In this document: piece by piece, positions 3,873 through 61,098 of the stretch | Layout: every line of letters begins with the position of its first letter | How positions within the stretch are numbered: position 1 is the first letter of the stretch | From: Sulfuritalea sp. | GTDB lineage: Bacteria; Pseudomonadota; Gammaproteobacteria; Burkholderiales; Rhodocyclaceae | DNA length: 64,000 nucleotides | NCBI GenBank assembly: GCA_030651305.1 | Contig: JAUSCI010000054.1 | Span: 1-64,000 of the forward strand | Direction: 5' to 3' | Translations under genes and position numbers: made by a program | The notes under the pieces: generated by a model | The model's input: the letters and a program-made list of their open reading frames with translations, nothing else | Told to the model about the DNA's origin: nothing | Databases searched by the model: none

Positions 3873-3911
3873 GAAAAAAGCCGCTCCGGCTTCCACCGGT
3901 GCGGCTTTTTG
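3873..3911 (-). terminator. Intrinsic terminator of sucCD
   Basis: Perfect arms AAAAAGCCGC (3875-3884) and GCGGCTTTTT (3901-3910) enclose a 16-nt loop that itself contains a small CCGG pairing. On the minus strand the stem ends in a run of T, 20 nt after the sucD stop. Because the arms end in A and T runs it could also act in the other direction. Confidence 0.78.
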
Positions 3912-3935
3912 GCGTGTTACCGGCGCCGACTCTTA
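3911..3935 (+). repeat. 25-bp dispersed sequence, copy a (diverged)
   Basis: Matches the window consensus (GCCGTAYCGCC followed directly by AGCGCCGACTYTTG) at 19 of 25 positions, with the core GCGCCGACTCTT intact. It joins the sucCD terminator to the sucD stop codon. The weakest of the twelve copies. Confidence 0.45.
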
Positions 3936-4829
3936 CTTCAGCAGTGCCTTGAGCAGCTTACCCATTTCCGACGGGTTGCGCGTCACGGTGAAACCGCATT
4001 CCTCCATGATGGCCAGCTTGGCATTCGCCGTATCGGCGCCGCCGGAGATCAACGCGCCGGCATGACCCATGCGTTTTCCGGCCGGAGCCGTGACCCCGGC
4101 GATGAAGCCGACGATGGGCTTCTTCATGTTGGCTTTGCACCACACCGCCGCATCGGCCTCGTCCGGGCCGCCGATTTCGCCGATCATGATCACGGCATCG
4201 GTGTCCGGATCGTCATTGAAGGCCCGCATGATGTCGATATGCTTGAGGCCATTGATCGGATCGCCACCCGTACCAACCGCCGTCGACTGGCCGAGGCCGA
4301 TCTCGGTCAACTGGGCCACCGCTTCATAAGTCAGGGTGCCGGAGCGGGAGACCACGCCGATGCGACCCTTGCGGTGAATGTGGCCGGGCATGATGCCGAT
4401 CTTGATTTCCTCCGGCGTGATCACGCCCGGACAGTTGGGGCCGAGCAGCAGCGTCTTCTTGCCACCGGCGGCCTCCTTGGCCAGCATCTTGTTGCGCACC
4501 ACCAGCATGTCGCGCACCGGGATGCCTTCAGTGATGCATATCGCGAGATCAAGGTCGGCTTCGCAGGCTTCCCAGATGGCGGCGGCAGCGCCGGCGGGCG
4601 GCACGTAAATCACGGAAACGGTGGCGCCAGATTGCGTCTTGGCTTCCTTCACCGAACCGAAGATCGGGATGCCGAAAATCGACTCGCCGGCCTTCTTCGG
4701 ATTGACGCCGGCAACGAAACAGTTCTTGCCGTTGGCGTATTCCTGGCATTTCTCGGTGTGGAACTGGCCGGTCTTGCCGGTAATTCCCTGGGTGATGACC
4801 TTGGTATCTTTGTTGATCAGAATGGACAT
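3933..4829 (-). CDS. sucD: Succinyl-CoA synthetase (ADP-forming) alpha subunit
   Basis: Alpha subunit (298 residues) of the TCA-cycle enzyme that converts succinyl-CoA to succinate with nucleotide phosphorylation. It has the N-terminal CoA-binding Rossmann domain ([16 protein letters not shown]) and the C-terminal ligase domain with the phospho-histidine in the [10 protein letters not shown] loop. The start at 4829 (MSILINK) gives the family length and has an AAGGAA ribosome site; an upstream in-frame start would add 23 unrelated residues. It follows sucC by 13 nt and ends just before a strong terminator. Confidence 0.97.
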
Positions 4830-4842
4830 ATCGGTTCCTTGA

Positions 4843-6003
4843 TTACTTGACGGCGGCGACGATCTTCGTCGCGGCATCGGCCATGGTGTCGGCGGCAATG
4901 ATCGGCAGGCCGGAGTCCTTGAGGATCTGCTTGCCGATGTCTTCGTTGGTGCCCTTCATGCGCACCACCAGCGGTACGCTGAGGTGCGTCTCCTTGGCGG
5001 CGGCGACGATGCCGGTGGCAATCGTGTCGCATTTCATGATGCCGCCGAAAATGTTCACCAGAATGCCATTCACCTTGGGGTTCTTCAGCATGATCTTGAA
5101 GGCCGCGGTGACCTTCTCGGTGCTGGCGCCACCACCGACGTCGAGGAAGTTGGCCGGTTCGGCGCCAAACAGCTTGATGGTATCCATGGTGGCCATCGCC
5201 AGGCCCGCACCATTCACCAGGCAGCCAATGTTGCCATCGAGCGAAATATAGGAGAGGTCATATTTCGAGGCCTCGATTTCGTCGGCATTCTCCTCGTCCA
5301 GATCGCGGTAGGCGACGATCTCCGGATGACGGAACAAACCGTTGTCGTCAAAGTTGAACTTGGCGTCGAGCGCCTTGATGTTGCCGTTGCCTTCGAGAAT
5401 CAGGGGATTGATTTCGGCCAGGCTGGCATCGGTTTCCATATAGCAGGTGTAAAGTTTCTTGAACGTATCCACCGCCTGTGCCACCGATCCGTCCGGTACG
5501 CCGATGCCCTTCGCCAGTTGGGTGGCCTGGGCGTCGGTGAGGCCTGTCCCCGGATCGACGAAGACCTTGATGATTTTCTCCGGCGTGTTCTTCGCCACTG
5601 TCTCGATGTCCATGCCGCCCTCGGACGACGCCATCAGGGCGACCTTCTGCGTAACGCGATCGGTCAGCGCCGCGCAGTAGTATTCATGCTTGATATCGGC
5701 GCCTTCCTCGATCAACAGGCGGCGCACTTTCTGGCCCTCGGGGCCGGTCTGGTGCGTCTTGAGCTGCATGCCGAGGATGGCCTTGGCGAAAATCCTGACT
5801 TCGTCGGGATTCCTGGCCACTTTTACACCACCGCCCTTGCCACGTCCTCCGGCATGGATCTGGGCCTTGACCACCCAGACCTTGCCACCGAGTTCCTCGG
5901 CAACCTTTACCGCCTCATCGACGGATAAAGCCGGCTTGCCGCGTGGAACCGTCACGCCGAACTTTTTCAGGATTTCCTTGCCCTGATATTCGTGGATCTT
6001 CAT
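4843..6003 (-). CDS. sucC: Succinyl-CoA synthetase (ADP-forming) beta subunit
   Basis: Beta subunit (386 residues, family-typical). The N-terminal ATP-grasp domain starts [17 protein letters not shown] and contains the [16 protein letters not shown] nucleotide-binding segment. The C-terminal domain carries the [10 protein letters not shown] region that contacts CoA/phosphate. It forms the heterotetrameric cytosolic enzyme with SucD, encoded immediately downstream. In an organism with KorAB (33-36 kb), succinyl-CoA can come from either the ferredoxin-linked or the usual dehydrogenase route. Confidence 0.97.
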
Positions 6004-6330
6004 GCGTCTTCCTTGTTGTAGGTAATTCGTTGATCGGGGCCGACATCGATCCGGAAAACCAGGTGCCGGTCTTGTTGCAGCGAGATCGCGCTGGAAAAAC
6101 CGTCAGCCCCTCTCCGAAGTCGTCGTACGCCTCAACAGGAGTGAGAAAACAGTCTGAAACGCCATTGTTGCGGCGCGGAATACTAACATAAGCATACTTA
6201 ATGGAGGCTTACAGGCGCTGATTCCAGGCCCGCGCATGCCCGCCGGCGCGCCAGACCGGCTGGCAGCATAATGACTGACGGCTGGCGGTGTCCCGCATGG
6301 AACGCCACCTCTCACCCGCAGGAGATTTCG
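6004..6330. other. Intergenic region between sucC and glpK (327 bp)
   Basis: Divergent spacer that should hold promoters for sucCD (minus) and glpK (plus). I found no convincing -35/-10 pair, operator, hairpin or small gene. A slightly AT-rich stretch near 6180-6205 is the likeliest glpK promoter area, and AGGAG at about 6320 is the glpK ribosome site. Confidence 0.6.
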
Positions 6331-59115: not shown

Positions 59116-59753
59116 TTGATTGCCGCTTCGATGGCGGCGATGACCGGTTGCAACAGTTCGCGCTTCATTTTGAGCGCCGCCTGATTGACCACCAGGCGCG
59201 ACGAAATGCTCATGATCTCCTCGACCTCCACCAGATTGTTGGCCTTCAGCGTACTGCCACTGGAAACCAGATCGACAATCGCCTCGGCCAGCCCCGCCAG
59301 CGGCGCCAGTTCCATCGAGCCGTAGAGCTTGATCAGGTCTACATGGACGCCCTTCGCGGCAAAGTGTTCACGCGCGACGGCAATGTACTTGGTGGCGATG
59401 CGCAAGCGCGCACCGCGCCGGACGGCAGCGGCATAGTCGAACCCTGCAGGGACCGCAACGCACATGCGGCATTTGGCGATGTTAAGGTCCAGCGGCTGGT
59501 ACAGCCCGACCCCGCCGTGCTCCAGCAGAACGTCCTTGCCGGCGATGCCCAGATCGGCCGCGCCGTATTGCACGTAGGTCGGCACATCCGAGGCCCGCAC
59601 GATGACCACGCGCACGTCATCGCGATTGGTGCCGATGATCAGTTTGCGCGACTTCTCGGGATCCTCGGCCGGCACTATTCCCGCCGCCGCCAGCAGGGGC
59701 AGGGTTTCTTCGAAGATGCGGCCCTTGGAAAGGGCGATGGTGATTCCGCTCAT
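59112..59753 (-). CDS. hisG: ATP phosphoribosyltransferase, short form
   Basis: HisG of 213 residues, the short form that lacks the C-terminal regulatory domain and needs HisZ for activity. [31 protein letters not shown] and the PRPP loop [17 protein letters not shown] are visible. hisZ is not in the window, as is usual in betaproteobacteria. It starts the hisGD pair, 76 nt after murA. Confidence 0.96.
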
Positions 59754-59796
59754 GCGCTATTCTATTCGAGCAGGCATTGCCCGCGAGCAACCGTCA

Positions 59797-59817
59797 CCCC
59801 CTTCCTCGGGAAGGGGG
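59797..59817. repeat. Perfect 9-bp hairpin between murA and hisG
   Basis: Arms CCCCCTTCC (59797-59805) and GGAAGGGGG (59809-59817) with a 3-nt loop. There is no T-run on either side, so it is not a canonical terminator; it may be a small intergenic repeat or slow transcription from murA into hisGD. Confidence 0.6.
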
Positions 59818-59829
59818 CGGGGGGAAGGC

Positions 59830-61098
59830 TTACTTTACCCGGCGAATGTTGGCGCCCAAAGCGGCCAATTTCTGTTCCAGGCCTTCATAGCCGCGGTCCA
59901 GATGGTAGATGCGTTCGATCAACGTCTCGCCCTGCGCCACGAGTCCGGCAATGACCAGGCTGGCCGAAGCGCGCAGGTCGGTAGCCATTACCGTGGCGCC
60001 ATCGAGCGTCGGCCGGCCCGTGACAAAGGCCGTGTTGCCGTCGATCTTGATGTCGGCGCCCAGGCGGATCAGTTCCACCGCGTGCATGAAACGGTTTTCG
60101 AAAATAGTTTCGCGCATCACGGCGGTACCTTCCGCCACCGCGTTGATCGCCATGAACTGGGCCTGCATGTCGGTCGGAAAGGCGGGATAGGGCGCCGTGC
60201 GGATGCTCACGGCAGTCAGTCGCCGCGGTGCCTTGAGGCGGATCGCATCGCGTTCGGTAACGATCTCACAGCCGGTATCCATCAGCTTGTCGATCACCGC
60301 ATCCAGATAGCTGGTTGAAGCGCCCGTGACCCGGATCTCGCCACCCGTCGCGGCCGCGGCGCAAAGATAGGTGCCGGTCTCTATGCGGTCGGGCATGATG
60401 CGATGCGTGGTGCCGTGCAAGGCATCCACTCCCTGAATGCGGATCACGTCGCCGCCGGCACCCGAGATGCGTGCGCCCATGGCGACCAGGCAGTTGGCCA
60501 GGTCGACCACTTCCGGTTCGCGCGCGGCATTCTCGATCACGGTTTCGCCCTGCGCCAGAGAAGCGGCCATCATCAGGTTCTCGGTGCCGGTGACGGTCAC
60601 CATGTCGGTGAACAGGTGCGCGCCCTTCAGTCGTGCGGCACGGGCATGCACATAGCCCTGCTCGACATTGACCTCGGCGCCCATCGCCGTCAGGCCCTTG
60701 ATGTGCTGATCCACCGGCCGCGCGCCGATGGCGCAACCGCCCGGCAGCGAGACCCTGGCTTCGCCCGCGCTCGCCACCAAGGGTCCCAGGACGAGAATCG
60801 AGGCGCGCATGGTTTTTACCATTTCGTAGGGCGCCACGGCATTGTTCAGGCCCGATGCATCCAGCGTCACCGTATCGCCAGCGCCGACTCTTGAGCCTTC
60901 CCGCGAAACCTTGACGCCCATTTGCGCCAGCAGTTTCAGCATGGTGCCGATGTCGTTCAGGTGCGGCACGTTGGTGAATGTCACCGGCTCCCTGGTCAGC
61001 AGCGCCGCGCACAACAACGGCAAGGCGGCGTTTTTCGCGCCCGATATCGCCACTTCACCCGAGAGCGGAATGCCTCCCGTGACCAGCAGCTTATCCAT
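59830..61098 (-). CDS. murA: UDP-N-acetylglucosamine 1-carboxyvinyltransferase
   Basis: MurA of 422 residues, first committed step of peptidoglycan synthesis. The fosfomycin-target Cys is in [33 protein letters not shown] at the N terminus and [14 protein letters not shown] are family signatures. It overlaps bolA by 8 nt, the usual order in this class. Confidence 0.97.
60869..60893 (+). repeat. 25-bp dispersed sequence, copy g (antisense in murA)
   Basis: 24 of 25 matches. On the murA strand it encodes SRVGAGDTV in a surface loop of the first domain. Confidence 0.8.

Follow-up and report, generated by a model that had tools for sequence, protein, structure and literature searches.

A dispersed 25-bp word in Rhodocyclaceae genomes: a candidate DNA uptake signal split by small inserts in some lineages

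DNA uptake words have been described for Neisseriaceae and Pasteurellaceae, many members of which are host-associated (open-licence PMC literature). In Neisseriaceae, the DNA uptake sequence (DUS) is strongly over-represented, 10-12 bp long and read by the pilin ComP; passages of PMC3630211 and PMC2397512 present it as conserved yet lodged in permissive core locations, with dialects particular to lineages. The uptake signal sequence (USS) of Pasteurellaceae consists of a core and separate flanking segments, and passages of PMC1626085 have such words arise by substitution and not by insertion. Among published DUS and USS, one orientation is favoured in the reading frame, according to PMC2346458. 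Here we describe a dispersed word of about 25 bp in a 64,000-nucleotide stretch of a Sulfuritalea sp. genome (family Rhodocyclaceae; assembly GCA_030651305.1, contig JAUSCI010000054.1, positions 1 to 64,000), called the window below, and in the genomes of its relatives. Like DUS, the word is short, strongly over-represented and found at permissive core positions, and its dialects differ between sampled genomes; with USS it shares an origin by substitution and a conserved tract exceeding a 9-bp core. It differs from DUS in being longer (about 25 bp versus 10-12 bp) and sparser, and in that the ComP_DUS pilin family does not track it, and from USS, which belong to another bacterial family, in forming one continuous block. 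The USS sequence is not known to be related to it. Judging from sequence, we put at roughly 0.6 the probability that the word serves as an uptake-type DNA recognition signal particular to one clade. No paper on a DNA uptake sequence in Rhodocyclaceae was found in the open-licence PMC literature, where the letters of the word core returned only papers unrelated by title.

The preliminary description of the window had listed a dispersed family of 12 sites. The family is real: nine of these sites (7827, 12848, 19980, 24288, 37547, 42163, 50303, 57654 and 60869) lie within three mismatches of the consensus proposed there, and a tenth at this threshold, 17194 on the minus strand, had been overlooked; 100 shuffles of the window gave none. 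The earlier match tallies (four sites at 24 of 25 positions, three at 23 and two at 22) stand, with one further site at 22. A frequency table of 56 copies from 464 kb yielded the refined consensus CGCCGTNYCGCCAGCGCCGACTYTT(g), a single continuous and non-palindromic 25-bp block with sharp borders, beyond which there is only a weak preference one base upstream. Measured against it, the window holds 11 words (at most two mismatches), one probable decayed word and one split word (Table 1). Of the three other sites listed earlier, 43209 is thereby retained, 52415 turns out to be the split word and 3911 is probably a decayed one, because its apparent orthologue in a congener (G344) reads GCCGTGTTGCCAGCGCC-AACTCC at that place, followed by similar downstream sequence (by eye).

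The count over the whole genome, a draft of 3,896,442 bases in 82 contigs with the window lying within contig C62, bore out the expected excess: 411 sites at up to three mismatches (225 forward and 186 reverse), compared with none for the reversed control, a density of about one word per 9.5 kb. The top over-represented 12-mer of the 464 sampled kb was CCAGCGCCGACT, observed 46 times with 0.9 expected. In other genera (samples of 80-240 kb), k-mers of the word headed the over-representation lists in all four samples from word-rich genera and in none of the five from word-poor ones, whose 80-kb samples yielded neither word k-mers nor any de novo word of equal strength.

A constraint on the word acts at the DNA level. 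In 308 genes called with a simple codon-based caller, which misses some genes (for example, the MaoC-like open reading frame (ORF) 41631-42704), 46 words were observed, as against 0-5 in 20 synonymous-codon shuffles. In 60 orthologous pairs from 24 sites, identity at third codon positions is 0.898 within the core and 0.648 in the flanks. As one word was compared with several species, neither these pairs nor the following 68 are independent. In 68 pairs with congener orthologues, core letters are 0.909 identical, versus 0.83 at random places (300 control pairs), with 0.78 and 0.76 in the adjacent flanks and 0.56, 0.81 and 0.60 at the degenerate positions of the word, which is thus a set of conserved letters in relatively permissive places. 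Among 246 words in the sampled stretches, 159 lie inside called genes and 87 outside them or at gene edges; the coding words occupy all six frames (sense 48, 29 and 6; antisense 55, 19 and 2). The claims of sense and antisense use in different frames and of selection or spread at the DNA level are thereby borne out.

Comparison of orthologues with and without a copy, which the preliminary description had proposed, speaks for substitution. Among 217 orthologous locus pairs between species, which are not independent in that one word was compared with several species, 192 keep the word (up to five mismatches). Where it is missing, nine pairs are of about equal length and 16 are longer; none is shorter, also when flank overlaps of up to 40 bp are allowed. 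The pairs cover 65 distinct words of 137, the others having no alignable flanks. Because absences are of about equal length or longer, and never shorter, the word is gained and lost by substitution and not as an inserted 25-mer. It aligns without any indel in 53 of the 68 congener pairs.

Close pairs of words are few: gaps below 1 kb were scarcer than chance in each of three partly syntenic stretches (1 versus 7.4 expected, 2 versus 5.9 and 4 versus 6.0), with seven observed and about 19 expected when pooled. The coefficients of variation of spacing are 0.78, 0.93 (G069) and 0.78. A strand bias, suggested earlier as a check, is absent at p<0.05 in nine of ten segments (64-300 kb), and strand counts are 137 and 136 in the complete genome G069, the origin and terminus not being located in either case. 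Contig C20 alone is nominally biased (33/17 at up to three mismatches, p=0.03), which we treat as chance because its syntenic partner G001_C7 is unbiased (29/24). With these counts, a polar motif of the Chi or KOPS type is unlikely.

Within the Rhodocyclaceae tree, the word is concentrated in a single region. Matches occur in 53 of 150 family genomes, the Sulfuritalea genome included: 15 genomes have at least 100, G045 has 45 and the rest have at most 16. Across 200 sampled genomes of the order, high counts were confined to members of the family, the others having up to four matches. An exact search of named contigs returned mostly Rhodocyclaceae or related beta-proteobacterial records among the 80 loci listed of 117 stretches, including Sulfuritalea, Rugosibacter, Propionivibrio and Sulfurisoma. 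The recA tree, built from 28 of 30 rows (G015 was dropped, its seed motif not being found, and G008, with a split gene, was left out), and midpoint-rooted for drawing only, includes 12 of 16 known word-rich genomes; a branch supported at 100/99 separates these 12 and four poorer genomes from the other 12 rows, which carry 0-6 words. Dialects vary between the sampled genomes, with one genome per genus sampled for most of them: AGCGTCGACT in 11 of 12 copies among the matches listed for G045, AGCACCGACT in 12 of 19 copies in G008, A for G in TCACC in 21 of 35 copies in G148, and T in first place in most copies in G080.

Exact words also occur, among the matches listed, in records labelled Planctomycetota, Brocadiaceae, Omnitrophota and Actinomycetota (L085, L105, L117 and L125), which may reflect binning errors or transfers. 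In the word-poor genome G083, five of six words lie within 41 kb (C1:1461266-1502268; L428-L430) in one orientation, perhaps imported DNA, and the word may serve as a marker of such imports. In IMG/VR viral contigs, the exact word was found in 92 stretches (80 listed, L334-L413).

Thirteen of the 16 longer wordless pairs (eight distinct loci) are words cut by an insert (by eye). There are six clear insert types, all with lengths that are multiples of 3, at two fixed points of the word: after CGCCGTNYC (+36, +69 and +72) and after CAGCGCC or CAGCGCCG (+21, +24 and +39; all net and hand-counted). An unclear split candidate of 73 bp (net +71), seen in G148, has a length that is not divisible by 3. 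Insert patterns free of word flanks, chosen after the inserts had been seen, fell at words in 6/6, 7/8, 3/3, 3/3 and 2/2 matches over about 1.25 Mb (by eye), and in 8/11 matches of a further set that overlaps the others. The 21-bp type has 63 copies, found by a pattern that includes word flanks and so is no proof that inserts are confined to words, in 12 of the 150 family genomes, all word-bearing, from six genera, with up to 18 copies per genome. By eye, the left half beyond the search pattern is near consensus at 18 of 20 fetched 21-bp loci, the exceptions being L285, where it is poor, and L286, where a further insert precedes; at L296, from G045, it carries that genome's own dialect.

Among 20 split sites tried, nine had an aligned relative, and at six of these the relatives carry an unsplit word (by eye): window 52415 (7/7 alignable congener stretches, the word sometimes being degenerate), G069_2880k 45198 (8/8), G001_C7 153772 (2/2) and C20 15180, G001_C7 109258 and G001_C7 55274 (1/1 each). 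Two of the nine are one site common to G001 and G117 (38-bp type), where other congeners are unsplit or wordless, and G069_2880k 97270 found only two distant wordless stretches with a left flank of 67-68% identity and a 30-bp shorter gap, of doubtful orthology. From the unsplit words of relatives, most of the tested inserts look young and seem to have entered existing words. Split words are a feature of some lineages and are new here, most alignable relatives being unsplit. Of the six inserts examined, four lack stop codons in all frames, and the 24-bp and 74-bp strings have one each. Hairpin folding is plain in the longest insert, modest in others and absent in the 24-bp type, which folds no better than chance (z-scores of the six from -0.1 to -3.2 against mononucleotide shuffles). 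In the 21-bp type, double compensatory changes occur in two of 441 cells (63 copies by seven pairs), a few cells break the pair, and varying positions lie mostly in loops.

An uptake-like signal, the option that the preliminary description had named first, is the best-supported reading of the word. Over-representation, both orientations, six frames, few close pairs, DNA-level conservation and substitution are shown, as are dialects between sampled genomes, and most of the traits expected of uptake words that can be checked from sequence are present. On this reading, a DNA-binding protein of the cell surface, most likely a minor pilin of the type IV pilus, would favour DNA with the word during natural transformation, so that the DNA entering a cell would come mainly from its kin. 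Preference for such fragments in uptake and recombination would then keep copies near consensus, with or without selection for kin recognition. Neither of two candidate genes was seen to track the word: ComEC (PF03772), the sole competence gene tested, is present in 30/30 genomes, word-free ones included, and the ComP_DUS pilin family (PF16732) in 138 of the 150 family genomes, with or without the word, five of six fetched matches from word-bearing genomes translating to ordinary-looking type IV pilins (by eye). Because neither follows the word, ComEC and a ComP-family pilin permit uptake and do not prove it. This lack of any receptor that tracks the word weighs against the uptake reading, as do several other points: a ComP_DUS match is missing from the word-bearing genomes G045 and G138; the words of G069 are spaced almost at random (0.93, compared with 0.78 in the other two stretches); indels interrupt the 25 bp in 15 of 68 pairs versus 27 of 300 random controls, partly owing to split words; and the open-licence PMC literature yielded no data on uptake or transformation in these bacteria. 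The word is also about twice as long as DUS and matches no known DUS dialect; by eye, the refined consensus matches neither AT-DUS nor AG-DUS as given in passages of PMC7371117, 5'-CTG-3' being present only on the opposite strand (CCAGCG). It is sparser than the one DUS per 0.4-1.1 kb stated there for Neisseriaceae, and a passage of PMC2397512 argues that many new DUS come from recombination and not from point mutation, which are indistinguishable here.

Finally, very similar traces would be expected of some other protein that binds DNA across the genome. A site for a cytoplasmic protein of chromosome organisation, replication or repair, with no role in uptake, is a possible if rather unlikely identity of the word: its length and rigidity, DNA-level conservation, few close pairs and clade specificity would suit such a site, as would competence genes that do not track it, whereas it is non-palindromic, unlike the palindromic parS, matS, SlmA and Noc sites, lacks the strand bias of polar sites such as Chi and KOPS in nine of ten segments and G069, and shows dialect shifts of the kind known for uptake words. 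The idea, also raised at the outset, that the word is a minimal element, mobile or gene-converted, which enters genes could draw on the strong consensus, the many near-identical copies, the related inserts at several sites and the shorter gap at G069_2880k 97270. For the word itself it fails and must be considered very improbable, being largely refuted for the 65 words tested: none of 217 pairs is shorter where the word is absent, nine absences are of about equal length, 13 of the 16 longer ones are split words and 53 of 68 pairs are gapless across it. What is left of the idea is that small inserts, which may be mobile, exist inside the word. Scarcely credible, too, is a by-product of linker peptides, AVSPAPT or VGAGGTA, kept by normal selection on protein sequence; two frames do hold 103 of the 159 coding words and synonymous shuffles still yield up to five, and yet the 46 words observed, the third codon positions, the use of six frames and both strands, and the 87 of 246 words that lie beyond called genes or on gene borders (some genes being missed by the caller) refute it. 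If the uptake reading is true, Rhodocyclaceae would be a third clade with such words, at about twice the length an independent case for their origin, dialect drift and receptor, and DNA exchange by transformation would be predicted in these bacteria, many of which are known here only as metagenome bins.

The inserts would be tiny parasitic or by-product sequences that enter words at the two fixed points, and our guess is that they perhaps spread by template switching between words, the near-identical halves acting as homology arms. Rickettsia palindromic elements lie in frame within genes. The inserts resemble these elements and short palindromes of the REP and REPIN type in being short and in some cases hairpin-forming, with multiples of 3 in the six clear types, and differ in their 21-39-bp units and their fixed points inside one specific word. 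An opposite polarity, in which the split form is ancestral and intact words are scars of precise insert loss, seems improbable: the 21-bp type, present in six genera, must be old or exchanged, and G001 and G117 have the 38-bp type at one site in common, yet relatives are unsplit at six of the nine split sites with an aligned relative, and up to 18 copies per genome in 12 of 150 genomes contrast with hundreds of intact words in the richest. More speculatively, and we hold this doubtful, the Rhodocyclaceae might have an uptake-word system that is the third of its kind, independent of the others, and remains functional when words are split, either with inserts that fold away so that the halves meet or with inserts that are micro-parasites targeting the word. 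As micro-parasites they would target the word since DNA beside it would be the DNA most often passed between cells, and would need no transposase, with word halves as homology arms. Split words form a natural experiment on where the length of the word is free and on what carries 21-39-bp inserts between words.

The window hosts of the word are ordinary genes, encoding MsrA, an FAD monooxygenase, Nif3-like and MaoC-like proteins, an acyl-CoA ligase, a sigma-54 activator, HisC, MurA, an ankyrin protein and TatB; the family scan took in 10 word-bearing ORFs and left out ORF 19760-21658. An Rfam scan of the window gave no matches. At the split site in tatB, which has seven mismatches to the earlier consensus, the insert length is again a multiple of 3. 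The G351 copy (L180) of the word in the MaoC-like ORF is split by a 24-bp insert.

Table 1. Copies of the word in the window and the gene that holds the split copy.
Feature	Position	Strand	Remarks
Probable decayed word	3910..3935	+	6 mismatches to earlier consensus, 5 to refined (hand count)
Word directly past stop of ORF 6271-7824	7826..7851	+	Orthologue aligned in G069
Word, sense, MsrA gene 12437-12997	12847..12872	+	Gapless in 4/4 congener stretches
Word, sense, FAD monooxygenase gene	17194..17219	-	Absent from earlier list; equal-length replacement in G348 and G345
Word, antisense in ORF 19760-21658 (-)	19979..20004	+	At most 3 mismatches
Word, antisense in ankyrin-repeat gene	24287..24312	+	G069 copy split by 21-bp insert
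Word, sense, Nif3-like gene 37221-37985	37547..37572	-	Gapless in 8/8 congener stretches
Word, antisense in MaoC-like ORF 41631-42704 (-)	42162..42187	+	Gapless in 4/4 congener stretches
Word, sense, acyl-CoA ligase gene	43209..43234	-	4 mismatches to earlier consensus, 2 to refined
Word, sense, sigma-54 activator gene	50303..50328	-	At most 3 mismatches
tatB gene holding split word	52335..52772	-	TIGR01410 above its cut-off
Split word in tatB: left part, 36-bp insert (CCCGCGAAGCGGAATCCCCGGTACGC type), right part	52415..52476	-	Unsplit in congeners
Word, antisense in hisC 56733-57803 (+)	57654..57679	-	At most 3 mismatches
Word, antisense in murA 59830-61098 (-)	60868..60893	+	Split in G349, apparently twice

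A 61-bp stretch beside word halves is nearly identical in two genera, at G038 C23 27562 and, on G344 C62, at the locus of window 7827; it could represent one more type of insert or an orthologous position. Other repeats were also seen. A palindromic repeat distinct from the word, dispersed and reaching about 100 bp in length, AGCCACAGAG..CACAGAGGACACAGAG with an inverted arm, lies on contig C20 of G000 at 212417, 116193, 262404, 104244, 214561 and 160529 (L031-L045), and a GC-rich hairpin-like repeat, CCCCTCTCCCGCCAGGGGAGAGGGG, at L038 around 4021-4111 has short dispersed matches in congeners.

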